Shown piece after piece: positions 3,207-20,393 of a stretch of DNA of 20,393 nt. The translations under genes and the position numbers were made by a program. The stretch is from a virus. Under the pieces are notes generated by a model. That model was not told the DNA's origin and did no database searches. It saw only the letters and a list, made by a program, of their open reading frames with translations. Numbering within the stretch: position 1 is the stretch's first letter; every line of letters begins with the position of its first letter. The stretch covers positions 1 through 20,393 of the IMG/VR virus record IMGVR_UViG_3300031951_001497; one strand, given 5' to 3'.

Positions 3207-4022
3207 TTACTTTGATAATATATGAATTACTGACTCACTCGGAAAAGAATATTCACCTTCAACAATAACGGTTTGATTGTTATTCATAATGTAGATTTCT
3301 TTAGTACCGTCAAAAATCAGGTAATCTGTCTCGTATTTTTTAACGTTACCAGTATCTGCGAACCTAATAGTCACACCATCATTTAATGTTTTGTAGAAAG
3401 GTTTAACTTGAGCGGTTTTAGTATTACCCTCAGTTTTAATTAAAACATCAACACCCGATGTCATATCTTCAGAACTATTTAACCCACCAATCTTTGAAAC
3501 ATTATCGTCACCATAGATCCTTTTCAAAAAATTAACAACACTATCTTCTCTATTCTCACCTAATTTATGTGTGCGATTAAGTGTTGCCATAATACTATTA
3601 AATGTGGATGATTCGGTGTTGAATATTCGTTCTTTGAATGTGTCAATCACCTTAGCCATTTTTCTTGCTTCAAAAAGTTGGTCGTCTTGTGTTCCATTAA
3701 AATTCAAAAGTTGGATACCTCTTGATTTTAATACCTTATTGATATCTCTAACTAATATGGCGAATGCACTATAATTGGTATTTAACTTATTCAAAACCGA
3801 TCTACCGGGTCCTTCTAAATTAAAAACTCCTGAAACAGTTTCGGAACCTTTTGGGTGAGTTTGCCATAAATCTTTAAACACCACTTCGAGTGCTTTGTCA
3901 ATTGCTTCACGATAAATCCACTTTACTTTAGGATTACGGTTAAACAAATCTTTGTACTTACTAACTTCGGAATAGGAACATTTTGTTACTTTTTCTTCGT
4001 TGAGAACAAATGAGTTTTTCAT
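3207..4022 (-). CDS. Putative PD-(D/E)XK-fold nuclease-like protein
   Basis: The protein has 271 residues and I recognise no named family. The C-terminal half shows a pattern typical of PD-(D/E)XK restriction-type nucleases. There is a helix with acidic residues at about 157-160 (GENREDSVVNFLKRIYG). A strand then carries Asp192 (SGVDVLIK) and is followed by a strand with Gln205 and Lys207 (TAQVKPF). QxK replacing ExK is a known variant in this fold. Short strands follow (TDYLIFDG, EIYIMNNN). The N-terminal half (about 1-130) is helical and of unknown role, and could bind DNA or a partner. The ATG overlaps the stop of the superoxide dismutase gene by one base (TAATG), so the two proteins are likely made together. 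It could be a host-DNA-degrading, packaging-linked or competitor-targeting nuclease; the sequence alone does not say. Confidence 0.7.
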   Translation of the reverse strand: MKNSFVLNEEKVTKCSYSEVSKYKDLFNRNPKVKWIYREAIDKALEVVFKDLWQTHPKGSETVSGVFNLEGPGRSVLNKLNTNYSAFAILVRDINKVLKSRGIQLLNFNGTQDDQLFEARKMAKVIDTFKERIFNTESSTFNSIMATLNRTHKLGENREDSVVNFLKRIYGDDNVSKIGGLNSSEDMTSGVDVLIKTEGNTKTAQVKPFYKTLNDGVTIRFADTGNVKKYETDYLIFDGTKEIYIMNNNQTVIVEGEYSFPSESVIHILSK

Positions 4023-4696
4023 TATTTAGTTGGTTTAAGTTTCTGATATTCTGAACTTACGAAATCCCAATTTACCACTTTCCAAAAGTTTTTGATATAT
4101 CGGTCTCTCTCATTTCGGTAGCTAAGATAATACGCATGTTCCCAAATGTCAAGCCCCAATAAAATTTTTCCTCCATTTCTAATAATATTCATCTCGGGGT
4201 TGTCCTGATTGGGTGTAGATACGACACGTAACCTACCACTTTTACCCATAATTAACCAAACCCATCCTGAACCAAACCTGTCTAATGCCACTTTTTCAAA
4301 CTTTTGTTTGAACTCATCATAAGAACCAAAATCTTTGTTAATTTTTTCTAATAGTTCTTTAGATGGTTTTGTTTTGTTTGGTGATAACATTTTCCAAAAT
4401 AGTTGGTGGTTATATACACCACCAGCATTATTCCTAATTTTCTTGTTATACCTTGATATTTTTTTAATTAAATCTTCTATTGGGATCATTTTTTCATCCG
4501 GTAGAAGTTCATTTAATTTTTTAAGGTAAGTTTTATAATGTCCATTATAATGAACATCCATAGTATCTTTACCGATAAAATCTGATAATGAATTTAAGTT
4601 ATAATCTAATTTTTGTGCTTTATAATTGGCTTCAAAAATATTCTTACCATCCAATAAAGATTCTAGTAAATGTATTTTTCTCTCAAGTAGTTTCAT
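4022..4696 (-). CDS. sod: Superoxide dismutase, Mn/Fe family
   Basis: Converts superoxide to oxygen and hydrogen peroxide. All four metal ligands of the Mn/Fe family are in place: His49 (TMDVHYNGHYKTY), His97 (NNAGGVYNHQLFW), and Asp183 and His187 (LDIWEHAYYLSYRNER). The conserved FGSGWVWL (141-148) and NQDNP (163-167) are also present. The Gly-Gly before the second ligand and the Gln in NQDNP fit the Mn-type pattern better than the Fe-type, though cambialistic use is possible. The catalytic core starts near residue 30, leaving a charged N-terminal extension of about 25 residues. No signal peptide is visible, so it should act in the host cytoplasm. The start is preceded by a TATTTAT element 5 nt upstream that is shared with the adjacent paralog array. 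The stop overlaps the nuclease-like gene start. With every ligand kept, it is probably active. Confidence 0.95.
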   Translation of the reverse strand: MKLLERKIHLLESLLDGKNIFEANYKAQKLDYNLNSLSDFIGKDTMDVHYNGHYKTYLKKLNELLPDEKMIPIEDLIKKISRYNKKIRNNAGGVYNHQLFWKMLSPNKTKPSKELLEKINKDFGSYDEFKQKFEKVALDRFGSGWVWLIMGKSGRLRVVSTPNQDNPEMNIIRNGGKILLGLDIWEHAYYLSYRNERDRYIKNFWKVVNWDFVSSEYQKLKPTK

Positions 4697-4753: not shown

Positions 4754-5044
4754 TCACATCTCGAGGATGTTTATACCCTCAATTTGAAAAGTATCTCCAA
4801 CCCATCTAGATATAAGCGAGTCTAACATAGATTCTTCCATAGGAAGATAACGAAGAATTTTATTTTTAATATCACGATGAACCCATAAATTTTTATCTCC
4901 CAATTCCAGATCACCAAATCCTTCAGGATCCATAAACCAAATAGTCCCAAGTTCATCTTTTCTCCATTCATATTTCTTAAACTGAGTTTCCATGAATTTT
5001 TTGAAAACTGGATATAACTTTTCTTCTGTTACCTTGACTTTCAT
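4754..5044 (-). CDS. Tandem paralog copy 1 (unknown family, truncated C-terminus)
   Basis: The protein has 96 residues and its function is unrecognised. It shares with the other four copies the near-invariant N-terminus MKVKVTEEKLYPVFKKFMETQF, here ending in YEW at residues 25-27. It also shares a DPEGFG-type turn near residue 40, a helix ending ILRYLPMEESMLDSLISRWV, and a short beta-like end (DTFQIEGIN). No signal peptide or membrane segment is seen. It is closest to copy 2. The stop is premature relative to copies 3 and 4, because the family's FPL ending survives in frame downstream of two stop codons. The missing part is only a variable tail, so the protein may still fold. Confidence 0.85.
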   Translation of the reverse strand: MKVKVTEEKLYPVFKKFMETQFKKYEWRKDELGTIWFMDPEGFGDLELGDKNLWVHRDIKNKILRYLPMEESMLDSLISRWVGDTFQIEGINILEM

Positions 5045-5049
5045 ACCAT

Positions 5050-5056
5050 ATAAATA
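5050..5056 (-). promoter_or_regulatory. TATTTAT element upstream of paralog copy 1
   Basis: It lies 5 nt before the ATG in the context TATTTATATGGTATG, the same arrangement as at the superoxide dismutase gene. Confidence 0.45.
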
Positions 5057-5059
5057 TTC

Positions 5060-5086
5060 TTACAATGGAAAGGCATTTTCAACGAT
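5060..5086 (-). pseudogene. In-frame 3' remnant of paralog copy 2
   Basis: After the TAA stop of copy 2, the same frame reads IVENAFPL and TAA. The FPL-stop matches copies 3 and 4 and sits at the same place relative to the next unit's leader. Copy 2 therefore also ends early by a nonsense change rather than by deletion. Confidence 0.65.
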
Positions 5087-5395
5087 TTAAAAATTTGGAA
5101 ACGATTCTATACTGGTGTTTATACCCTCAATTTGAAAGGTATCTCCAACCCATCTACCCATAAGTGATTCTAACATATATTCTTCCATAGGAATGTAGCG
5201 AAGAATTTGATCTTTAATATCACCATAAACCCATAAATCTTCATTGTTTTCCAATTCCAAATGACCAAATCCTTCAGGATCCACAAAATCAATACACCCA
5301 TATTCATCTTTTGTCCATTCATAATTCTTAAACTGAGTTTCCATAAATTTTTTGAATACTGGATATAACTTTTCTTCTGTTACTTTAACTTTCAT
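5087..5395 (-). CDS. Tandem paralog copy 2 (unknown family)
   Basis: The protein has 102 residues. It has the shared N-terminus MKVKVTEEKLYPVFKKFMET, the DPEGFGHLEL segment, a helix ILRYIPMEEYMLESLMGRWV and GDTFQIEGIN, all very like copy 1. Differences cluster at residues 28-36 and 48-60, where charge and size change freely (DEYGCIDFV against DELGTIWFM in copy 1). The C-terminus after GIN is unrelated to copies 3-5 and ends early, with an in-frame remnant ending FPL beyond the stop. It is predicted to be a soluble, mixed alpha/beta, small cytoplasmic protein. The role is unknown. Confidence 0.87.
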   Translation of the reverse strand: MKVKVTEEKLYPVFKKFMETQFKNYEWTKDEYGCIDFVDPEGFGHLELENNEDLWVYGDIKDQILRYIPMEEYMLESLMGRWVGDTFQIEGINTSIESFPNF

Positions 5396-5399
5396 AATG

Positions 5400-5406
5400 A
5401 TAAATA
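5400..5406 (-). promoter_or_regulatory. TATTTAT element upstream of paralog copy 2
   Basis: It lies 4 nt before the ATG in the context TATTTATCATTATG. The same 14-mer precedes copies 4 and 5. Confidence 0.45.
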
Positions 5407-5409
5407 TTC

Positions 5410-5745
5410 TTATAATGGAAAGGATCCATCAACTAATGGATAGGATTCGTGTCTTGCCAAAGTGGGGGCTAACCCCTTAACTTGAAGGGTCTCTTCTACC
5501 CACTTACTCATAAGTGAGTTTAACATAGATTGTTCCATAGGAAGATAAGGAAGTATTTTTTTTCTAATATCACGATAGATCAATAAATCCTTAATGTGTA
5601 CCAATCCCAAATGACCATACCCTTTAGGATCTGAAAACCAAATGTCATCATTCCGATCTTTTCTCCATTCATAATTCTTAAACTGAGTTTCCATAAATTT
5701 TTTGAAAACAGGGTATAACTTATCTTCTGTTACTTTAACTTTCAT
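5410..5745 (-). CDS. Tandem paralog copy 3 (unknown family)
   Basis: The protein has 111 residues. Its N-terminus is MKVKVTEDKLYPVFKKFMET. It has a DPKGYGHLGL segment, a helix ILPYLPMEQSMLNSLMSKWV and then EETLQVKGL. It pairs with copy 4: both have LLIY in the middle strand and VEETLQV before the tail, where copies 1 and 2 have LWV(H/Y) and VGDTFQI. The tail (from about residue 92) is unique in sequence but keeps the ending DGSFPL. This copy and copy 4 appear to be the intact full-length forms. Function is not recognised. Confidence 0.88.
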   Translation of the reverse strand: MKVKVTEDKLYPVFKKFMETQFKNYEWRKDRNDDIWFSDPKGYGHLGLVHIKDLLIYRDIRKKILPYLPMEQSMLNSLMSKWVEETLQVKGLAPTLARHESYPLVDGSFPL

Positions 5746-5749
5746 ATTG

Positions 5750-5756
5750 ATAAATA
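5750..5756 (-). promoter_or_regulatory. TATTTAT element upstream of paralog copy 3
   Basis: It lies 4 nt before the ATG in the context TATTTATCAATATG. This 14-mer is identical to the one before the unrelated gp14-like gene on the other strand at 8247-8260. Confidence 0.45.
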
Positions 5757-5759
5757 TTC

Positions 5760-6101
5760 TTATAATGGAAAGGTATCACCATCATAAAAACGCGGTATTG
5801 TAAATTGGGGTACAGTGGGAACGGTTAACCCTTCAACTTGAAGGGTTTCTTCTACCCACTTACTCATAAGTGTTTGTAACATAGATTTTTCCATAGGAAT
5901 GTAGCGAAGAATTTGATCTTTAATCTCACGATAGATTAATAACTCTTTATTTTTCAACAATCCCATGTGACCATATCCTTCAGGGTCTATGAACCAAATG
6001 GAATCAAATTTACCTTTTCTCCATTCATATTTCTTAAACTGAGTTTCCATGAATTTTTTGAATAATGGATATAACTTTTCTTCTGTTACTTTAACTTTCA
6101 T
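5760..6101 (-). CDS. Tandem paralog copy 4 (unknown family)
   Basis: The protein is the longest copy, at 113 residues. It has the N-terminus MKVKVTEEKLYPLFKKFMET, a DPEGYGHMGL segment, a helix ILRYIPMEKSMLQTLMSKWV and EETLQVEGL. A Pro/Thr-rich tail (VPTVPQFTIP) follows and ends DGDTFPL. That ending is also found in the untranslated remnant of copy 1, so it is probably ancestral. Like the others it has no visible export signal, and the conserved N-terminal helix could be a common docking or oligomerisation surface (inference). The function is unknown. Confidence 0.88.
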   Translation of the reverse strand: MKVKVTEEKLYPLFKKFMETQFKKYEWRKGKFDSIWFIDPEGYGHMGLLKNKELLIYREIKDQILRYIPMEKSMLQTLMSKWVEETLQVEGLTVPTVPQFTIPRFYDGDTFPL

Positions 6102-6105
6102 AATG

Positions 6106-6112
6106 ATAAATA
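6106..6112 (-). promoter_or_regulatory. TATTTAT element upstream of paralog copy 4
   Basis: It lies 4 nt before the ATG in the context TATTTATCATTATG. Further upstream the sequence is an A/T-only run and differs from the leader of copies 1-3. Confidence 0.45.
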
Positions 6113-6120
6113 TATTATTA

Positions 6121-6444
6121 TTATCTATTAAGGCTAATCAAAACCAACTGTTGAAACTGCGAGAGGGTTATACCCTTAATATTTAAGGTCTCTCCTACCC
6201 ATCTAGTCATAAGTGATAGGAACATAGATCGTTCCATAGGAAGGTAATTAAGGATTTTTTTTGCGGTTTTAGCATAAATTAATAAAGTTTTATCTTTACT
6301 CAACGCCAAATAAGAATCTCCTCCGGGACTCATAAACAAAACAACATCATAATTATCTTCGATCCATTCATAATTCTTAAACTGAGTTTCCATAAATTTT
6401 TTGAAAACAGGGTATAACTTATCTTCTGTTACTTTAACTTTCAT
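6121..6444 (-). CDS. Tandem paralog copy 5, most divergent (unknown family)
   Basis: The protein has 107 residues. The first 20 or so residues are as in the other copies (MKVKVTEDKLYPVFKKFMET). The centre differs strongly: MSPGGDSYLAL replaces the DPEGYGHL-type turn, and AKTAKKILNYL replaces the charged (R/K)DIK helix start. The PMERSMFLSLMTRWVGETL block is kept. The tail lacks the FPL ending and finishes SLNR. It is the first unit in the transcription direction, next to the helicase gene. It may be the oldest copy, or one shaped by a different partner. No known domain is recognised. Confidence 0.86.
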   Translation of the reverse strand: MKVKVTEDKLYPVFKKFMETQFKNYEWIEDNYDVVLFMSPGGDSYLALSKDKTLLIYAKTAKKILNYLPMERSMFLSLMTRWVGETLNIKGITLSQFQQLVLISLNR

Positions 6445-10087: not shown

Positions 10088-13000
10088 ATGGCTACAGCAA
10101 ATAAGGTATTCGTTTCACCTGGGGTTTATACCTCAGAAAGGGATTTAAGTTTTGTTGCTCAAAGTGTTGGTGTTACAACATTGGGTTTGGTTGGTGAGGC
10201 ACTAAAAGGTCCCGCTTTCGAACCAATTTTTATCACTAGTTTTGATGAGTATGAAACATATTTCGGTGGAACTTCAACAGAAAAATTTGTGAACACACAA
10301 ATTCCTAAATATGAAATGGCATATATTGCAAAATCATATTTACAACAATCAAATCAGTTATTTGTATCAAGAATATTAGGTCTATCAGGATATGATGCAG
10401 GACCATCTTGGACTATCAAAACGATTGCAAATCCAAATACATCAACAATTGGTATTACAGGTAATACACCTGTTGGATTCACAGTTACATTTAGTGCTAA
10501 CTCAACGGGAACTGTAAATATTTTAACAAACGGATTGTCAGCATATACAGACGTAAATGCGTCATATACTAAAATAGATGGTAGTACTTCAACATTTACA
10601 ACAGATTTACAAAATTTATTATTAACGGTTTTTGGTAATGATACCGCTGCGGTTGTTCAAGTTAATTCAGGTGCAACATCATATATTTTTGGTAGTTTAC
10701 CATCGGCAACTAACACAACATATACATCAGGTGCTTACACGGCTTCAACAAACGTTTTAGGTGTTTATAACACAAACGCATCATCTCAGGATTACACATC
10801 TTATTTAAATGATCCTTGGTATTATTCATTGTTTAATATCAGTTCGGGCAATGCGTATGTTGGTCGTTCTTTTGTAACTTTCTTAAGTTCATTGTCGGGA
10901 GGTTTAAGTGCTGGATCTTACACATCATACACGGGAACGATTTCGGGACAAACTTTTGGTTGGTCAGGTACTGCATATTCAGCATATAATAATATGGTGG
11001 TTGCAACATTGAGATCAAGAGGTGTTTCTAATTACGGTTCCGGAGTTGCGGGACCCGATTTTGTTGTAAGTGCTCAATCAAATGTTAATTTGGTAGATGT
11101 AAATAGCGGTGTAACTAAAAATCCATACACAGAATTCCAAATTTCAGGTTTAACAACTTCAAATTCCACACCATTCACACTAACTGCGTCAATGCAACAA
11201 ACAGGAACTAACTATTTGAGTAAAGTATTGGGTAAAGATAATTTTGGTAAAGACAGAACAGTAGTTCCTCTTTTCGTAGAAGAAATTTATCCTAACTTGT
11301 TGAATTTTGGTTATAATAAAGGTTACATTAGAGGACTAAGCACAAGTTTAATTCAGTTACCGGGGTTGAGAGCTGCTAACACAACAGGAACTATGGCTTA
11401 TTTCTTAGATCCTTACCAAACACCAAGTTCTCCTTGGGTGGTTTCAGAACTTCGAGGTAATCAGGTGTATGAACTTTTCAAAGTAATTACAATTTCAGAT
11501 GGTAATGCTGCTAATACACAAGTTAAAGTTTCAATATTGAATATGTCGTTCAATAATTTAACTTTTGATATTGCTGTTAGGGATTTTTACGATACGGACA
11601 CAAATCCTGTTATTTTGGAGAAATTCACAAACTGTACAATGGATCCTAGTCAAAATAGTTACATTGGTGTTAAAGTTGGTACCTCTGATGGTGAATACCA
11701 ATTAAACTCTAAGTTTATTATGTTGGAGCTTAATTATGATGCACCTGTAGATGCCATTCCTTGTGGTTTTGAAGGTTTAATTGAAAGAACCTATTCTTCA
11801 ACATCAAACACACCACCACAACCTGTATATAAAACTAAGTATGATTTCCCTGGTGAAGTTATTTACAACCCACCATTTGGAAATGCTACAGGTTCGGCAG
11901 ATAATTCAACAACATCAAGTGGTGATAAAGTTAGAACTACTTACTTAGGATTTTCATCACAATTGGGTATTGACTCCGATTTGTTCCAATATAAAGGAAA
12001 ACAAAACCCAACAAGTATTTGTAATGAGGCATCAAGTTGGACTTATCAAACTAAAGGTTTCCACATGGATAGTGGTGCTACGGTAGTAACTATCGCAAAT
12101 TCATACCTATCTTCAGGAACATCGGCATTTGAAGTTGGATCAACAAGTTTCACAACAGACCCAACAGATCCCGCTAATCCATATTATAAAATACAATCAC
12201 GTAAATTCACATTCTTAGTTCAAGGTGGTTTTGATGGTTGGGACATTTATAGAGAAAGAAGATCTAATGGTGATGAATTTATTTTAGGTGGTACAGGATA
12301 TCAGAAAGGTGTTTCATCTACTTGTGATACAAGATATCCATCGGCAACTGGTTGGGGTGCGTTTAGACCATATACATATGGTAATAACACTACCGATTAT
12401 GCAACAACTGACTATTATGCTTACTTAATTGGTATTCAAACATTCGCAAATCCTGAAGCAACTAATATTAACGTATTCGCAACTCCGGGTATTGATTATG
12501 TAAATAACAGTAACTTAGTTGAAAACGCAATTGAGATGGTTGAGCAAGATAGAGCGGATTCGATCTATATCACAACAACTCCCGATATTGACCTATTGGT
12601 TTCAACGGTGGATTCACAAGATTTCATTGATCCGACTGAAGCTGTTAATACTTTGGATGATACTGGTATTGATTCTAACTATACATCAACTTATTATCCT
12701 TGGATTTTAGTTAGAGATACTGTTAATAACACACAAATTTATCTTCCACCAACAGGTGAGGTTTGTAGAAACTTAGCACTTACCGATAATATAGCTTTCC
12801 CTTGGTTCGCATCGGCGGGTTATACTAGAGGTTTGGTTAATTCGGTAAAAGCAAGAAGAAAACTAACTCAAACAGATAGAGATACATTGTATCAAGGAAG
12901 AATTAATCCTATCGCAACTTTCTCAGATGTTGGAACTGTAATTTGGGGTAATAAAACACTACAAGTTGCACAATCAGCACTTGACAGATTAAATGTTAGA

Positions 13001-13294
13001 AGATTGTTGTTACAAGCTCGTAAATTAATTTCAGCGGTTGCGGTTAGATTGTTGTTTGAACAAAACGATGAGAAAGTTAGACAAGATTTCTTAGATGCGG
13101 TTAATCCTATTTTGGATTCAATTAGAAGAGATAGAGGTCTATATGATTTCAGAGTTACGGTAAGTTCTTCACCCGAAGATTTGGATAGAAACCAATTGGT
13201 GGGTAAAGTTTATATTAAACCAACTAAATCTTTGGAATTCATTGATATCGAGTTCTTAATTACACCAACAGGTGCGTCTTTTGAAAATATCTAA
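10088..13294 (+). CDS. 18: Contractile tail sheath protein (gp18-like), enlarged
   Basis: Forms the contractile sheath around the tail tube. It has 1068 residues, far longer than T4 gp18 (659). The N-terminus (VFVSPGVYTSERD, residues 7-19) and the SFDEYETYFGG segment (51-61) are typical of sheath proteins. The C-terminal domain from about residue 785 is the conserved core: ATPGID, the ATFSDVGTVIWGNKT stretch, and then a helix with RRLLLQARKLISAVAVRLLFEQND. The last 60 residues end in strands (YDFRVTVSS, EFIDIEFLI). Residues 110-320 are Ser/Thr/Gly/Asn/Tyr-rich and beta-like and look like an inserted surface domain. A second variable region lies around 560-780. The gene has its own TATTTAT element and is followed after TAATAA by the HAD-like gene. 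Codon use is like its neighbours, so the insert is not a recent foreign piece. Confidence 0.95.
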   Translation: MATANKVFVSPGVYTSERDLSFVAQSVGVTTLGLVGEALKGPAFEPIFITSFDEYETYFGGTSTEKFVNTQIPKYEMAYIAKSYLQQSNQLFVSRILGLSGYDAGPSWTIKTIANPNTSTIGITGNTPVGFTVTFSANSTGTVNILTNGLSAYTDVNASYTKIDGSTSTFTTDLQNLLLTVFGNDTAAVVQVNSGATSYIFGSLPSATNTTYTSGAYTASTNVLGVYNTNASSQDYTSYLNDPWYYSLFNISSGNAYVGRSFVTFLSSLSGGLSAGSYTSYTGTISGQTFGWSGTAYSAYNNMVVATLRSRGVSNYGSGVAGPDFVVSAQSNVNLVDVNSGVTKNPYTEFQISGLTTSNSTPFTLTASMQQTGTNYLSKVLGKDNFGKDRTVVPLFVEEIYPNLLNFGYNKGYIRGLSTSLIQLPGLRAANTTGTMAYFLDPYQTPSSPWVVSELRGNQVYELFKVITISDGNAANTQVKVSILNMSFNNLTFDIAVRDFYDTDTNPVILEKFTNCTMDPSQNSYIGVKVGTSDGEYQLNSKFIMLELNYDAPVDAIPCGFEGLIERTYSSTSNTPPQPVYKTKYDFPGEVIYNPPFGNATGSADNSTTSSGDKVRTTYLGFSSQLGIDSDLFQYKGKQNPTSICNEASSWTYQTKGFHMDSGATVVTIANSYLSSGTSAFEVGSTSFTTDPTDPANPYYKIQSRKFTFLVQGGFDGWDIYRERRSNGDEFILGGTGYQKGVSSTCDTRYPSATGWGAFRPYTYGNNTTDYATTDYYAYLIGIQTFANPEATNINVFATPGIDYVNNSNLVENAIEMVEQDRADSIYITTTPDIDLLVSTVDSQDFIDPTEAVNTLDDTGIDSNYTSTYYPWILVRDTVNNTQIYLPPTGEVCRNLALTDNIAFPWFASAGYTRGLVNSVKARRKLTQTDRDTLYQGRINPIATFSDVGTVIWGNKTLQVAQSALDRLNVRRLLLQARKLISAVAVRLLFEQNDEKVRQDFLDAVNPILDSIRRDRGLYDFRVTVSSSPEDLDRNQLVGKVYIKPTKSLEFIDIEFLITPTGASFENI

Positions 13295-14250: not shown

Positions 14251-14739
14251 ATGGCTGATTTGTTAATGAAAATGCCTATTCCTTATGAACCCAAAAGGAA
14301 TAACCGATTTATATTAAGATTCCCTTCTTCATTGGGTATTAACGAATGGTATGTTCAGAGTTCGGGAAGACCGGCAATAAAAATAGGTAGTACAGAAATA
14401 CCGTTCTTAAATACAAGTACATTCGTTGCGGGTAGATTCAATTGGGACCCGATTAAAGTTGATTTTGTGGATCCTATTGGGCCATCGGCAACACAGGCAT
14501 TAATGGAGTGGGTTCGTTTGCACGCTGAATCTGTAACAGGTCGTATGGGTTATGCTGCGGGTTATAAGAAAAACATTGACTTAGAGATGTTAGATCCAAC
14601 GGGTGTTGTTGTTGAAAAGTGGATACTTGAAAATACTTTCTTGACTGATGTATCTTGGTCACAAGCATCATATAGTGATGATAAGTTAGCGACTCTATCT
14701 TGTTCATTACGTATGGATCGTTGTATCTTGGTATATTAA
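14251..14739 (+). CDS. 19: Tail tube protein, T4 gp19-like
   Basis: Builds the inner tail tube through which DNA passes. It has 162 residues, almost the T4 gp19 length (163). The sequence has the expected tube-protein shape: an N-terminal NNRFILRFP strand, a loop with RPAIKIGSTEIPFLNT, and WDPIKVDFVDPIGP. A helix around TQALMEWVRLHAE follows, then KKNIDLEMLDPTG and WILENTFLTDVSW, and a final strand (LATLSCSLRMDR). Order supports it: it follows the sheath (with the HAD gene inserted) and precedes the gp26-like chaperone. It has its own candidate promoter, consistent with the high demand for tube subunits. The strong terminator directly downstream would keep most transcripts from entering the chaperone gene. 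Confidence 0.9.
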   Translation: MADLLMKMPIPYEPKRNNRFILRFPSSLGINEWYVQSSGRPAIKIGSTEIPFLNTSTFVAGRFNWDPIKVDFVDPIGPSATQALMEWVRLHAESVTGRMGYAAGYKKNIDLEMLDPTGVVVEKWILENTFLTDVSWSQASYSDDKLATLSCSLRMDRCILVY

Positions 14740-14801: not shown

Positions 14802-15545
14802 ATGCAAGACGCAACACAATACGGACAAATTGATTTTAATTTACCACATGATGTGGTGCCTTTACCATCAAGAGGAATTTTTTATAAAAATAAAAAGGAA
14901 TCTGTGAAAGTGGGATATTTGACCGCTTCGGATGAAAACACAATTATGTCGGCACCTTCCGATTCCATAGTAACAACACTAATTAGATCAAAATTATATG
15001 AACCGGGAATTAGACCCGAAGATTTGTTAAATGGTGATATTGAAGCTATTCTTATCTTTTTAAGGAACACATCGTTTGGTCCCGAATACACATTCAAATT
15101 AATTGACCCCGAGACTGGTAATGAGTTTAAGGGTAATGTGATGTTAGATGAGTTAAATATTAAACGAACAAATCAATTACCTAATGAGGATGGGACATGG
15201 ACCACAACTTTACCAAGAAGTGAAGTGAAGGTAAAATTAAAACCATTGACATTGGGTGATATGACAGAGTTGGATAGAATGAATGCGATGTATCCTGTGG
15301 GTAAAGCACCTACGGTGACTACAAGATTGGCTAAGTCAATTATTAGTATTAATGATGATACTAGCCCTGAAAATATTATTAAGTTTATTGAATCTATGCC
15401 TATTATGGATTCTAAATACATTAAAAAATTCATTAATGAAAATGAACCAAGATTGGATCTTGTGAAAACAGTTATCGCCCCATCCGGAAAAAAGGTAGAT
15501 TTGAATATCGCCTTTGGGGCAGAGTTTTTTCGCCCTTTCTTCTGA
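14802..15545 (+). CDS. 26: Baseplate hub assembly / tail chaperone protein, T4 gp26-like
   Basis: Matches the T4 baseplate protein family of gp26. The N-terminus has the PLPSRGIFYKNKK stretch (20-32), the VGYLTASDENTIMS block (38-50), RPEDLLNGDIEAILIFLRN (71-89) and FGPEYTFKL. A later segment, LKPLTLGDMTELDRMN, is also typical. It has 247 residues; T4 gp26 has about 208. In T4 gp26 acts with gp51 in assembly of the baseplate hub. Here the gene lies just upstream of a gp51-like frame and the tape measure, the classic place for tail-assembly chaperones. The ATG directly follows the T-run of a terminator, so no ribosome-binding leader separates them. The stop TGA at 15543 is overlapped by the gp51-like frame, and a +1 shift at TTT-CGC would extend this protein by about 52 residues. 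Confidence 0.85.
   Translation: MQDATQYGQIDFNLPHDVVPLPSRGIFYKNKKESVKVGYLTASDENTIMSAPSDSIVTTLIRSKLYEPGIRPEDLLNGDIEAILIFLRNTSFGPEYTFKLIDPETGNEFKGNVMLDELNIKRTNQLPNEDGTWTTTLPRSEVKVKLKPLTLGDMTELDRMNAMYPVGKAPTVTTRLAKSIISINDDTSPENIIKFIESMPIMDSKYIKKFINENEPRLDLVKTVIAPSGKKVDLNIAFGAEFFRPFF
15525..15535 (+). other. Candidate +1 ribosomal frameshift site TTT TTT CGC
   Basis: In the gp26-like frame the codons are GAG TTT TTT CGC CCT. The tRNA(Phe) on TTT can re-pair perfectly on TTC after a +1 slip, leaving GCC CTT TCT in the gp51-like frame. UUU followed by a slow CGN codon is the site known from influenza PA-X, and a stop follows 12 nt later. Confidence 0.5.
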
Positions 15546-15690
15546 TTATAACAGAGTATTATCTGACGAATTTTATTATTTGGCGAAGCATCTACATGTT
15601 TCTTATGGAGATTTTTATCGTATGCCCACTTATTTTAGGAAATATTTGATGAACAAGTTGGTCACGGATTTAACACCCAAAACTAACTAA
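15532..15690 (+). CDS. 51: gp51-like frame, probably read by +1 frameshift from gp26-like gene
   Basis: From GCC at 15532 the +1 frame reads ALSSDYNRVLSDEFYYLAKH, then a helix and aromatic run, YRMPTYFRKYLMNKL, and ends TPKTN. The MPxxxRKYxxxKL segment is the pattern I know from gp51-type hub-assembly proteins of T4-like marine phages. The frame is open back to 15505, but the only in-frame ATG is at the Met of YRMP, deep inside. The sole early alternative start is a TTG at 15514, with no suitable leader. The protein is therefore more likely a C-terminal extension of the gp26-like protein than an independent gene. It ends 25 bases before the tape-measure start. Confidence 0.65.
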   Translation, partial: ALSSDYNRVLSDEFYYLAKHLHVSYGDFYRMPTYFRKYLMNKLVTDLTPKTN

Positions 15691-15715: not shown

Positions 15716-17455
15716 ATGGCACAAAATATTTTTGACGATTTAAATAAATATGGACAAGGATTGGCCGACATTCTTACCAAACAATTTTTTGCAAATCTGC
15801 AGGAATTTCGTGAAAATCTTGATGAGCAATCTCTGTCCGTTCAAAAGAACATGACTGCCAATAGGGAAACTTATAGAGAGGTTTCCAAAACTATTGCCGA
15901 CGCATCTAAAGATTTGGCTTTGGTTATTGACCAAGGTACCGATGTTGCTAATTTAACACAAAAAGCGGCTGACATAATTTCTAATATCGCCTCTGAACTT
16001 GAATATAGTTTTGTTGTTGGTGCTAAAAATATGGTTGAGATCCAAGCGGCAGCGACAGCAACCGGTTTAGGTATTCAATCCATTACACAAAGTTTTGTAA
16101 AATTTGCTGACTTTGGTGAATCCATGAATAATTTTGGTGAAAACACATTAACCATATTATCTGAAGCTAGAAAATTCGGAGCAAATACAAATCAAGTATT
16201 TCAACAAGTTAGTGATAATTTATCAAATGCTAATAAATTTGGATTTCAAACGGGTGTTGATGGTTTGGCAAGGATGGCGGCAAAAGCGGCTTTACTAAAG
16301 ATTGATATGTCCGACGTATTTAATTTTGCGTCAAAAGTATTTGACCCTGAAGGTGCTATTAGTGCGGTAAATACATTTCAACGATTAGGGGTTGCTGTTG
16401 GTGATTTAGCAGATCCGTTTAGGTTGATGTATTTGGCACAAGAAGACACTGAAGGACTACAAGAAGCTATTGGTGGTGTGGTTGAAAGAATGGGTTTTTT
16501 GAATAAAGAAACCGGTAAATTTGAGATACCTCCAGCTGCTAGACGAGATTTAATGAAAATTTCCGAAGAAACGGGACTTAGTTATGATAACATGGTTAAA
16601 ATGGCTAAGGCAAGGGCTCAACTTAATGAAGTATCAAAAGAATTAAAAGTTGCCGGAATTGACGAAGAAACAAAAATGTTTTTGTCGGGTGTTGCTAATT
16701 TTGATAAGATTAAAGGAGGTTTTACGGTTAAAGTTGATGGTCAAGATAGATTGGTTTCACAACTACAACAAGGTGATTTAGAAAAGATAAAAGCACAAAC
16801 AACAAGTGCCAAAACCTTAGAGGATTTTGCTGCGGAACAATTATCAACACAACAAATGATGAACAATAATTTGACAGCGATTAAAGTTGGTTTCGGAGTG
16901 TCGGGGATTGCTAGTAGTAAAGTGTTCCAAGATCTTATTGAAATACAAAGAGGAGGTCAAAGAATTGTTACTGAAGGTGTTAGACAGGCATTTCGTCCCG
17001 GAGATCAACGACAATTAGTAGATAGATTTGAAACCGGTGGTGTTGATGCAATAAAGGATTTAGTTAAGGGTGACCTTGAAGGGTTTAACGATAAGTTTGG
17101 AACAACTCTTAACGACTTTATTGTTGATTTTTCTGAAAACTTTAGTAAAAGTATTGACAGAATATCCTCAATTGATTTTGCATCCACATTTCAAACACAA
17201 ATTTCTAAAGAAAATATTGTTGTTCCTGCGGTTGGAAGTATTGTTAGTGATCTTATAGAACAATTAGGTATTAAAGAAACTAAGAAACCGGAAACTGTTA
17301 GAGTTGATCCCGTTACTGTCCAATTAACGGGTAGGGTGGATATTATGCAAGATAATAGAGTTGTTGGTCAAATAGATGCTAAAAATTTACAATTTTCAAA
17401 CGCAGTTAAAGCAGTATTAAAAGAACCTGATGTTTATAACGCGCCGGGTCAATAA
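15716..17455 (+). CDS. 29: Tape measure/baseplate hub protein, T4 gp29-like
   Basis: Sets tail length and is threaded through the tube. It has 579 residues, close to the 590 of T4 gp29. Residues 1-100 are predominantly helical and coiled-coil-like (KQFFANLQEFRENLDEQSLS). A central segment around 120-250 has the kind of block seen in tape measures: SFVKFADFGESMN, then VFDPEGAISAVNTFQRLG at about 205-225. Later regions alternate helix and Gly-rich turns. The C-terminal 60 residues turn beta-like (VTVQLTGRVDIM). No transmembrane segments are visible. Position is diagnostic: directly after the chaperone pair and before a tube-cap-like gene, as 26-51-(27)-29-48 in T4. I see no gp27 equivalent between them. 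Function is well supported by context and only moderately by motif. Confidence 0.78.
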   Translation: MAQNIFDDLNKYGQGLADILTKQFFANLQEFRENLDEQSLSVQKNMTANRETYREVSKTIADASKDLALVIDQGTDVANLTQKAADIISNIASELEYSFVVGAKNMVEIQAAATATGLGIQSITQSFVKFADFGESMNNFGENTLTILSEARKFGANTNQVFQQVSDNLSNANKFGFQTGVDGLARMAAKAALLKIDMSDVFNFASKVFDPEGAISAVNTFQRLGVAVGDLADPFRLMYLAQEDTEGLQEAIGGVVERMGFLNKETGKFEIPPAARRDLMKISEETGLSYDNMVKMAKARAQLNEVSKELKVAGIDEETKMFLSGVANFDKIKGGFTVKVDGQDRLVSQLQQGDLEKIKAQTTSAKTLEDFAAEQLSTQQMMNNNLTAIKVGFGVSGIASSKVFQDLIEIQRGGQRIVTEGVRQAFRPGDQRQLVDRFETGGVDAIKDLVKGDLEGFNDKFGTTLNDFIVDFSENFSKSIDRISSIDFASTFQTQISKENIVVPAVGSIVSDLIEQLGIKETKKPETVRVDPVTVQLTGRVDIMQDNRVVGQIDAKNLQFSNAVKAVLKEPDVYNAPGQ

Positions 17456-17479: not shown

Positions 17480-17496
17480 ATTAAAATGAATTATTG

Positions 17497-20393
17497 ATGG
17501 GAACTAGTCCGTTATCGTTTAATGCAACCGAGATCATTAGAAAAAGTTTAATTGTAAGGAATCTTAAACCTTACAGAAAACCAGGCGTATATACACCACC
17601 AAGTGGTGCGGTTACATACCCAACCGAATTACAGGATTATAGTGTAATTGATTCTCCTGATGTTTTAATAGATAACAGTCCTTTTTCTGATAATTTATAT
17701 AAGATTAATGAATTTGGTCCTAATGGTGGTTTTAATAAAACTATAAATTATAATAATGTTGTAAGTTCGGGACCTAATAAGGGGGAATATGGACCATTTC
17801 CCCCATATATCGATGCTATTGAGAATTATAGTATATCCTATCAAAAAGCATCGTCAATTATCAACCAATACGGACCTCCCGGAGGTTTTCAAAATCCGTA
17901 TAATATTGGTTTAATACAAAGGTCTAAAGGTGTTTTGGCACCGTATTGGGGTCCACCTAGTTTTAGACCCTCATTATATTCACCATATGCGGTTTTACTT
18001 TCAAGTAATCCACAAGGGTCGGATGGTACATTATCTTTGGATTCTGAACCAAGAAGGTTTGATATTGGGGTTGCGTTAAAGGCTAATTTAAAGGCGAGGG
18101 TTGATCAAAATGTTAGAACCGAAACAATCGGAAGACTTACATTCTTAGAGTCACTTAGAGATCCATTTGAGGTGGCTCAAGTTTTGGCGGGTAAAAGACC
18201 TATAGTATCAAAAGATTGGACAATTACTGTTCCGTCAAACGCTATTGGTAAAATGGCGGATATTCTTAACAGAATTGCAGGAACTTACTATCCTGTATCA
18301 CCGATACCGGGTGATTATTTTGATGAGGATATGACACAGAACAACCTTGGTAGAACACAACAAACGGTTGTTGGTGCTGCGGTTGCGGGGGCGTTTGGAA
18401 CGAGAGGGTCAAGAGGTAGAACACCGTCGGATTTATTCTTAAAAAATACAGGATCGGGTCAAAAATTCCAACTACAATCTAACATTGAACAAAACAAGTT
18501 TAGACCCGCGTTTAGTGATGATGCCGTAGGTGGTATATTTTCGTTTAATTTATCAAACTTAACTAAAGGAAACTTTTATGTTGGTTCAAAGGATCAAGAT
18601 CCGGGATCTTTAACATCACCTCCGGGTGCTATACCAAAAGATGAAACGGGTAGAGAAGTTAATGCTCCTGTATATGGACCTGAAGTATTGGGTAATAATT
18701 ATGAAAATAATATACAAATCCAAAACGGTTTTGCGGGTAAATCTTATGAGGATGCGGGGGGTATTCAAGGAGGGTTCACATGGGTATCACCGAAATATAG
18801 TAAAAATGCGGGTAAAAATGTAGCACCTGGTGGTGATTATACCACAAATAACCCAACATTTAATAGTATTAGTGATAAATTCAATGCGGGTAAATCAACT
18901 AATTATGAATTTAGACCGGGTAGTATTTTAGATGATACTCAAAGGTTAATAGATTCACAACCCGATGGTGCTAAGAGACTTAACCACGTTGGTAACGCAA
19001 TTGACCAAGTATCTAAAGTATTTAGTGATGGGTATAAGGAATTAACTAAGGGTTCTAGGGTGATATCTTACACTAATGCGTCGGGAACGGAAGCGGGTAG
19101 AGAATATTGTAGGGTGTTTGCTAAGGACAAACCATATATTAATTATGAAAATTTACAGAAACAAAAAGGTAGTATCTATCAATTTGTTAATTCTGTAATA
19201 ACTTCAACATATAATTTGAATATTGTTCCGACAAGTAACAACGTTAATCCAACTGCAGTTGAGAAAAACGTTACCAAATACATGTTTAGTATTGAAAACT
19301 TGGCTTGGAGAACGTCAAATAAAGAAGGTTTTAGAGTGTCGGACCTTCCTGCTTGTGAGAGAGGTCCTAATGGGGGTAGAATAATGTGGTTCCCACCTTA
19401 TGGTTTAACATTTAGTGAGGATTCAAGACCGTCGTTTAATGAAAATACATTTATTGGACGACCTGAACCTGTTTATACTTATAAAAACACATCAAGATCG
19501 GGTCAATTATCATTTAAGATTGTGGTGGATCACCCATCTATATTAAATCTTATTGTTAATAAGGTTTTGGCGAATACTGATAGAGAAACTGCTGATAATA
19601 TCGTTGATTCTTTCTTCGCGGGTTGTAAAGAATATGATTTGTATGAATTGGCTCAAACATATAATACCATACCGGCATCGGATTTGGTATATTTTCAATC
19701 AATTGTTAATACAACAACACCACAAAATCCTGCAACACAGGAATCTACACAACCGATTAATCAATCACAACCGGCACCAATTATTCCTCAACAAACCAAA
19801 CCATCTGAATTAAATTGGGATAAGTTTAAAAACTTAGGTTTTTATTTTTACAACGATTATCCCGATCCAAATACGAGATTAACTCAAACAACGAGTGCTT
19901 ATGATGTTGAATATAATTTCTTATTAAGTAAGGAAACAACCTTCATTGAAGTTGCTTCAAGAAATAATACACAAACTGAGATGCAAAATTTCTTTGATGA
20001 TATTGTTATTGATAACTTCACAACTGTTGGTAATAAATTGGTTCCCGAGATAAAGAAAGTTTTGGATGACGGGACTGCTAAAAGTATAACAATTACTTTA
20101 ATTGGTTCTGCGTCCGCACCTGCAACAATAAGTTACAACGTTGATTTGTCAAAAAGAAGAATTGATAGTGTTAAAGATTATTTCCAAAATGTTTTGGGTT
20201 CATACATAGATTCGGGAAGATTGAAAATTGATTCGGGTTCTGCGAGAGGTGAGCAAGAATCAAGTGCTACACTATATAGTTTCAATAAAGGGACTAAATC
20301 ACAGGGTTATAATTGTACTGACTTAGATACTAAAAATATACCATACAATAAGATATTTTCCGTTCAAGCATCTGCTTGTAGAAGAGTTGGAAT
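17497..20393 (+). CDS. Large baseplate protein, gp48-like tube-cap region plus OmpA-like domain, 3' end cut
   Basis: The frame is open from ATG 17497 to the window edge, at least 965 codons. The first 120 residues are Pro/Gly/Asn/Tyr-rich (KPGVYTPPSGAV, NEFGPNGG, YGPFPPY). A middle region (about 625-700) has the FPPYGLTFSEDSRPS, FIGRPEPVYTYKNTSRS and GQLSFKIVVDHPS pattern seen in tube-like domains of baseplate tube-cap proteins. A Pro/Gln/Thr linker (about 739-770) leads to an OmpA-like domain: FYFYNDYPDP at about 782-791, SITITLIGSAS, and YNVDLSKRRIDSVKDYF at 880-896. That last segment fits the N-x-x-L-S-x-x-R signature, though the usual Asp before it is absent. In T4 the gene after 29 is 48 (364 residues), so this is likely a greatly enlarged gp48 analogue. 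OmpA-like domains bind peptidoglycan; here that could anchor the baseplate to the cell wall (inference). Confidence 0.72.
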   Translation, partial: MGTSPLSFNATEIIRKSLIVRNLKPYRKPGVYTPPSGAVTYPTELQDYSVIDSPDVLIDNSPFSDNLYKINEFGPNGGFNKTINYNNVVSSGPNKGEYGPFPPYIDAIENYSISYQKASSIINQYGPPGGFQNPYNIGLIQRSKGVLAPYWGPPSFRPSLYSPYAVLLSSNPQGSDGTLSLDSEPRRFDIGVALKANLKARVDQNVRTETIGRLTFLESLRDPFEVAQVLAGKRPIVSKDWTITVPSNAIGKMADILNRIAGTYYPVSPIPGDYFDEDMTQNNLGRTQQTVVGAAVAGAFGTRGSRGRTPSDLFLKNTGSGQKFQLQSNIEQNKFRPAFSDDAVGGIFSFNLSNLTKGNFYVGSKDQDPGSLTSPPGAIPKDETGREVNAPVYGPEVLGNNYENNIQIQNGFAGKSYEDAGGIQGGFTWVSPKYSKNAGKNVAPGGDYTTNNPTFNSISDKFNAGKSTNYEFRPGSILDDTQRLIDSQPDGAKRLNHVGNAIDQVSKVFSDGYKELTKGSRVISYTNASGTEAGREYCRVFAKDKPYINYENLQKQKGSIYQFVNSVITSTYNLNIVPTSNNVNPTAVEKNVTKYMFSIENLAWRTSNKEGFRVSDLPACERGPNGGRIMWFPPYGLTFSEDSRPSFNENTFIGRPEPVYTYKNTSRSGQLSFKIVVDHPSILNLIVNKVLANTDRETADNIVDSFFAGCKEYDLYELAQTYNTIPASDLVYFQSIVNTTTPQNPATQESTQPINQSQPAPIIPQQTKPSELNWDKFKNLGFYFYNDYPDPNTRLTQTTSAYDVEYNFLLSKETTFIEVASRNNTQTEMQNFFDDIVIDNFTTVGNKLVPEIKKVLDDGTAKSITITLIGSASAPATISYNVDLSKRRIDSVKDYFQNVLGSYIDSGRLKIDSGSARGEQESSATLYSFNKGTKSQGYNCTDLDTKNIPYNKIFSVQASACRRVG

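Follow-up and report, generated by a model that had tools for sequence, protein, structure and literature searches.

A conserved +1 overlap at the 3' end of a gp26-like phage gene, and a probable programmed frameshift yielding a short and a long tail assembly chaperone from it

Two proteins of phage T4, gp26 and gp51, are listed as hub assembly chaperones in the consulted passages of a T4 review (PMC3004832), gp51 being required and absent from the particle. The same passages refer to genetic studies supporting a place of gp26 in the hub, so that gp26 need not be a chaperone only. According to the consulted part of the PRFect publication, which cites Vladimirov 2022, some T4-like phages do not frameshift but carry two chaperone genes, a short one and a longer, fused one. 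Forward shifts are known in the chaperones of other phages, and the same part of that source gives 350 of the 2,718 positive sites in the PRFect training data as such and names UUU, CUU and CCC as slippery for +1 shifts in the context of RF2. Poly-T signals for -1 shifts are known in TAC-N genes of T4-like phages, as stated in passages of PMC12846349 citing the 2022 paper.

The stretch of DNA analysed here (the window) is the 20,393-base virus record IMGVR_UViG_3300031951_001497, a fragment of a large contractile-tailed phage (myophage). Its tail genes and the reading frame under study are the following.

10088..13294, plus strand: tail sheath protein (phrog_23, E 3.2e-57; PF17482)
14251..14739, plus strand: tail tube protein, gp19-like (phrog_4542, E 1.4e-20)
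14802..15545, plus strand: gp26-like protein, 247 aa, putative short (G) form of a tail assembly chaperone (PF12322, phrog_150)
15505..15690, plus strand: open +1 frame over the gp26-like 3' end, ORF of the C-terminal T extension (sequence reading)
15716..17455, plus strand: probable tape measure protein, 579 aa (position only)

The gp26-like protein scored 45.5 bits against the Pfam profile PF12322 (curated cut-off 24.5) and matched phrog_150 (baseplate hub) in PHROGs with an E-value of 8.9e-16. Fold matches of its AlphaFold model (pLDDT 89) in BFVD include a baseplate hub subunit of SP-15 and gp26 of Aeromonas phage 25. No solved structure in the PDB resembled the model by fold at E <= 0.001 (best 0.33), and the single PDB match by sequence had an E-value of 0.73. 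Tail tube gene, gp26-like gene, T ORF and 579-aa ORF follow each other in this order. The 579-aa ORF had no family match above cut-off in Pfam or PHROGs; a tape measure is annotated at the equivalent place in Flavobacterium phage immuto and Listeria phage LIS04. By position, this ORF is the probable tape measure gene, directly preceded by the gp26-like gene.

Three other regions of the window deserve mention. Five tandem ORFs of 96-113 aa on the minus strand (4754-6444), starting MKVKVTE[ED]KLYP[VL]FKKFMETQFK, appear paralogous by eye, and the two of them scanned against Pfam gave nothing at E <= 0.01. A phage iron/manganese superoxide dismutase (PF02777, 133.5 bits; PF00081, 67.1 bits) is encoded on the minus strand at 4022-4696. 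A large ORF past the tape measure gene (17494-20391, plus strand) contains an OmpA-like stretch (PF00691, 24.6 bits, below the cut-off of 27.2).

An earlier note on this DNA had described a +1-frame ORF overlapping the gp26-like 3' end, a site GAG TTT TTT CGC with a TGA 12 nt on, and a downstream frame devoid of a usable ATG; all three were confirmed by reading the sequence. The junction reads GAG TTT TTT CGC CCT TTC TTC TGA and comprises the following elements.

15516..15518, plus strand: GGG codon, candidate stimulatory (Shine-Dalgarno-like) element, starting 12 nt upstream of the slip codon
15525..15533, plus strand: slip site TTT-TTT-CGC, with the P-site TTT at 15528-15530 and +1 re-pairing on TTC at 15529-15531
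15532..15687, plus strand: T domain, 52 aa (ALSSDYNR...TPKTN), read only after a +1 shift; fused product 295 aa
15543..15545, plus strand: stop codon TGA of the unshifted product (sequence reading)

The A-site codon CGC occupies 15531-15533, and the slip codon is separated from TGA by 12 nt. In the +1 frame, a TGA at 15502-15504 is followed by an open stretch from 15505 to 15687 and the terminating TAA at 15688-15690. The first ATG of this ORF is codon 40 of 61, from where merely MPTYFRKYL... would be made. An in-frame TTG at 15514-15516, which the earlier note did not mention, has no close Shine-Dalgarno-like sequence by eye. RNA structure near the site was found in none of four folded stretches (two of the window, one each of the related loci L018 and L019; z -0.97 to 0.64). 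A sequencing error in the T-run, named in the earlier note as a possible refutation, is very unlikely: seven other contigs (L001-L007), all from this phage, have an identical junction stretch, and all 75 distinct sequences of the window's clade among the matches listed carry T6.

From these features and the comparisons below, a programmed +1 frameshift very probably yields a short (G) and a long (GT) tail assembly chaperone. We infer that the majority of ribosomes end at the TGA at 15543 and produce the 247-aa short form. Some ribosomes would stall at UUU 15528-15530, with tRNA-Phe in the P site, owing to the following CGC, a codon used very rarely in the phage (2 of 5,983 codons over 14 ORFs of the window, the CGC of the slip site counted in). 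The tRNA-Phe would move one base forward from UUU to UUC, GCC would become the next codon, and translation would continue in the +1 frame to give the 295-aa long form. Through its additional helical T domain of 52 residues, the long form would bind the tape measure protein encoded by the next gene, and the chaperone pair would assemble the tube around the tape measure; this putative function is suggested by gene place and arrangement.

Junctions of related phages were compared in three clades, of which clade A is that of the window, clade B the second and clade C the third. The +1 frame was counted as open if it extended at least 35 codons past the frame-0 stop with an overlap of at least 10 nt. 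The lists hold the best 80 matches per scan, and their members are related, so that the counts are not independent events. Among the matches listed, 216 sequences (the window and some copies included) had the gp26 stop in reach, seven loci without it being left out; 211 of these were +1-open (3 of them also in -1), 2 were open to the contig end and 3 were open in -1 only. Counted as distinct junctions among the matches listed, window included, 181 of 186 were +1, 2 ran off the contig in +1 and 3 were -1. The ends of other long ORFs from the same loci served as controls (475 distinct), and here the +1 frame was open in 24 (5%) and the -1 frame in 13. The search of genome contigs found 14 loci, of which 13 were examined (the partial L366 was left out); all 13, with 12 distinct junctions and identity to the query down to 32%, were +1. 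Another locus, L224, is a partial match. Named phages with the +1 arrangement are Flavobacterium phage immuto, Streptococcus phage GXN1, Microcystis phage Mel-JY01, the metagenomic LR756508, Listeria phage LIS04, Bacillus phage SP-15 and Rhodothermus phage RM378, with gp26 identities of only 24-30%. A conserved alternate frame is open across the gp26-like 3' end.

In two loci (L206 and L207), the gp26-like frame continues beyond its usual end (RSKDKKHFATTI*), and the overlap with the T-like peptide is longer than elsewhere.

The +1 peptides of the three clades are homologous (hhalign E-values of 1.8e-9 for A-B, 6.1e-9 for A-C and 8.1e-6 for B-C, with 0.14 and 0.37 in two reversed clade-to-clade controls) and often have a common motif of the type MPxxxRK. 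The +1-frame peptide of the window (15529-15687) was modelled as three helices with a pLDDT of 88, and its T part had no match in Pfam or PHROGs. Of 29 T parts, 5 showed a weak match to DUF6760 (E <= 1). In single scans of nine T parts against this family, one reached 26.3 bits (cut-off 27) and one an E-value of 0.02. The former is a clade B T part (L165:3225-3476); DUF6760 is a family of unknown function and may be the same kind of domain.

By a strict anchor, sites were parsed in 75 of 75 (clade A), 80 of 80 (clade B) and 22 of 26 (clade C) distinct junctions among the matches listed, 177 in total; the absence of a downstream stop in the +1 frame in 177 of 177 arises by construction, the loci having been chosen as +1-open, and has no evidential value. 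All 75 listed sites of clade A contain TTTTTTC and read TTT-TTT-CGN, with CGG in 30, CGT in 29 and CGC in 16; since one of two search patterns for this clade was the peptide [ED]FFRPFF, Arg was partly selected for, the Arg codon was not. The background of CGN in the same genes is 11.5% of 640 Arg codons elsewhere. The +1 shift at UUU-UUU-CGN with re-pairing on TTC, as suggested in the earlier note, is supported. The GGG 12 nt upstream of the slip codon is likewise present in 75 of 75 clade A sites among the matches listed (background 10.9% of 792 Gly codons) and precedes the slip, in a part where the +1 frame does not have to code. It may act like the internal Shine-Dalgarno sequence of prfB, which is a guess, the spacing in prfB differing from that of the GGG here.

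The other clades vary at the slip site. Among the 80 listed sites of clade B, 59 read TTT TTT T, 20 read TTT CTT T and one reads TTT CTA T; the next codon is TGG in 73, TAC in 4 and TTC in 3, and 40 of these 80 have GGG at the upstream place. Clade C has TTT TTT C in 14, TTC TTT C in 7 and TTT TTT A in one of the 22 parsed sites (26 listed), while 4 of the 26 distinct junctions have no TTT site and read TTA or CTA, TT[T/C], AAT CCC AGT. At L026, re-pairing of the second TTT on UUA would be poor, and L025 reads TTT CTA TTC. As far as can be read from the sites, the clades have in common, with few exceptions, a P-site tRNA able to pair again after moving one base forward; the rule is shared, the sequence is not. 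In the comparison with relatives proposed in the earlier note, the +1 overlap is kept in 181 of 186 junctions among the matches listed and UUU-CGN is kept in clade A, but UUU-CGN is not universal, clade B having mostly TTT-[C/T]TT-TGG and other phages a -1 arrangement.

The four clade C loci with AAT CCC AGT and no TTT anchor (L210, L211, L215 and L222) might allow a +1 slip on CCC-A.

Peptide conservation upstream of the site was higher in frame 0 (0.64, 0.49 and 0.25 in clades A, B and C) than in the +1 frame (0.43, 0.33 and 0.16). In the downstream codons 13-32 the +1 frame was the better conserved (0.51, 0.35 and 0.10 versus 0.30, 0.23 and 0.09 in frame 0), with a small gap in clade C. Over codons 1-3 past the site, frame 0 was equal or better (0.94, 0.89 and 0.43 versus 0.72, 0.89 and 0.29) because the two frames overlap there, which is of no help to the +1 case.

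Alternatively, the T ORF could have an internal or coupled start of its own, so that T would be made as a free protein and not as part of a fusion. A distant phage, LR756511 (L028), has such a start: its T ORF begins with a separate ATG that overlaps the stop of gp26 (TAATG) and is a further solution to the arrangement. A separate ATG-started downstream gene, considered in the earlier note as a refutation, thus occurs, though in that distant phage. Among the matches listed, an ATG before 15 nt past the frame-0 stop is present in 62 of 181 +1 ORFs (38 of 75 in clade A), many with AGGAG approximately 15 nt upstream, and the window, though it has no such ATG, has the TTG at 15514. However, 37 of the 181 distinct +1 ORFs among the matches listed contain neither ATG, GTG nor TTG in this range. 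In 87 of 177 listed cases, the 8 codons before the site include a +1-frame stop; the last such stop lies at a minimum of 5 nt, and in 28 of 177 listed sites at 11 nt or less, from the slip codon, which leaves little room for a start codon. The frame-0 stop is as near as 3 sense codons past the slip site. A separate start would also leave the fixation of TTT-TTT-CGN and GGG unexplained, and the lower conservation of the clade A +1 peptide upstream of the site (see above) argues against it. We regard a separately translated T protein as very unlikely.

The same frame would be reached by a -2 ribosomal shift, a type which occurs in phage Mu, and re-pairing after -2 is also perfect at TTT TTT CGN. 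At TTT CTT TGG (20 of 80 in clade B) and TTC TTT CGN (7 of 22 in clade C), by contrast, re-pairing is possible after +1 but not after -2, making a -2 shift very improbable. Slippage of RNA polymerase on the T-run, leaving a fraction of transcripts one base shorter, would suit the T6 of clade A and the T7 or T8 in 59 of 80 clade B sites among the matches listed. Yet the arrangement is kept although the T-run never exceeds 3 in 24 of the 177 listed sites and equals 4 in 4 more, and the choice of the A-site codon would not matter to a polymerase; there is only a slight chance that slippage of this kind accounts for the overlap. A pseudogene or chance overlap, for which one might point to the short T ORF and the lack of Pfam and PHROGs matches of the window's T part, is extremely unlikely, given that the overlap is kept over three clades and in named phages with gp26 only distantly similar, against the control rate of 5%. 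Programmed +1 frameshifting is therefore the preferred reading.

The earlier note had taken the downstream ORF for T4 gp51, and this had to be corrected. The whole PF12322 profile is matched by both T4 gp26 (residues 1-206 of 208) and T4 gp51 (1-201 of 249), and gp51 has about 48 further C-terminal residues beyond its PF12322 part. The +1 ORF would correspond to this extra part and not to the whole of gp51, and the likely counterpart of T4 gp51 is the fused shifted product as a whole. A merged T profile gave E-values of 0.0013-0.0035 against 13 gp51 C-termini and 0.17-0.19 when reversed, a weak resemblance; profiles of single clades gave 0.073 (A), 0.12 (B) and 0.0033 (C), and with only 7 gp51s the values were 0.12-0.34. 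L234, which was read only to 120 aa, and L227-L229, which are near copies, were left out of this comparison. One PF12322 copy was found in 19 of 21 records with a match, several of which are fragments whose genomes may hold a second copy, and two copies in T4 and Aeromonas phage phiAS4; 26 records were searched, the 5 without a match all being clade B phages. The work of Vladimirov, Gautam and Davidson (2022) on tail chaperones of T4-like phages reportedly names genes 26 and 51. The two-gene state of T4 fits the PRFect statement, in the part of that source consulted, for which Vladimirov, Gautam and Davidson 2022 is cited.

The T ORF lies in the -1 frame in 13 named phages, 11 of them proteobacterial jumbo phages and 2 of them cyanophages. 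The same Phe-Phe stands at the end of these 13 gp26 genes and reads T_TTT_TTC in 10 and T_TTT_TTT in 3, a canonical -1 site. Two scans, one of them limited to the best 80 matches, gave further distinct junctions, part of which duplicate or closely repeat those of the jumbo phages just named; among the matches listed, T_TTT_TTY is in frame in 87 of 87, and the -1 ORF is open in 84 and reaches the contig end in 3. The X_XXY_YYZ type of -1 site does not apply to the window, in which the T ORF is in the +1 frame. During evolution the homologous Phe-Phe slip site has probably changed direction: the window's clade and the phages of Flavobacterium, Rhodothermus, Bacillus, Listeria, Streptococcus and Microcystis would use +1, cyanophages and proteobacterial jumbo phages would use -1, and T-evens have two genes instead. 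Since one net base separates the two arrangements, one indel in the run could be enough to turn one direction into the other. If the switch is real, selection holds the pair of short and long products and not the decoding mechanism.

Cyanophage S-RS29 has a CDS annotated as 'baseplate hub assembly catalyst' (46 codons with stop), which lies in the -1 frame inside the T ORF. Cyanophage genes of this name (L253:2121-2258 and L254:2136-2240) probably represent parts of a -1 frameshift product that annotation has turned into genes of their own, and the name 'gp51' for the T ORF probably came from the annotation of such small cyanophage CDSs. We suggest correcting the annotation of small cyanophage 'gp51' ORFs, and of unannotated gaps before the tape measure gene, to parts of a shifted protein.

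If the frameshift is true, frameshifting is the source of the tail chaperone pair in many PF12322 phages outside the T-evens, and +1, -1 and two genes form a natural series solving the same problem. Close to 200 distinct natural +1 sites would also become available in which the A site holds a sense codon, a kind of which, to our knowledge, few are catalogued. The literature searched (titles and starts of abstracts, with passages of PMC10885494, PMC12846349, PMC12671138 and PMC3004832) describes no +1 shift in a PF12322 gene and does not mention DUF6760; subscription papers, Vladimirov et al. 2022 included, are mostly outside this scope. Part of the finding could have earlier priority in Vladimirov et al. 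2022.

Among known systems, the gp26 of cyanophages and jumbo phages belongs to the same family, with the same Phe-Phe slip place and a T ORF downstream, but with this ORF in the -1 frame behind T_TTT_TTC or T_TTT_TTT. T4 gp26 and gp51 also represent the PF12322 family with a short and a long member; unlike in the window, the two forms are two genes. The +1 shift of prfB (RF2) at CUU-U shares P-site re-pairing one base forward next to a slow A-site codon, which is a stop in prfB and a sense codon in the window, and the gene is a different one. Influenza PA-X, with the shift motif UUU-CGN, also combines +1 re-pairing with a slow A-site codon in a different gene. In the consulted passages of PMC12846349, the chaperones of Vandenendeviridae and Andersonviridae (phage Adele) resemble the window in a poly-T site (GTTTTT) and an alternate-frame ORF open in all alleles, whereas their shift is -1. 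The lambda-type G/GT genes, as described in passages of the same source (PMC12846349), are placed just before the tape measure gene and give a short product and a longer, C-terminally extended one by a shift near the 3' end. The earlier note's link of this locus to G/GT tail chaperones, and its place before the probable tape measure gene, are supported; the lambda-type shift is usually -1, whereas the window has a PF12322 N-terminal part and a +1 frame.
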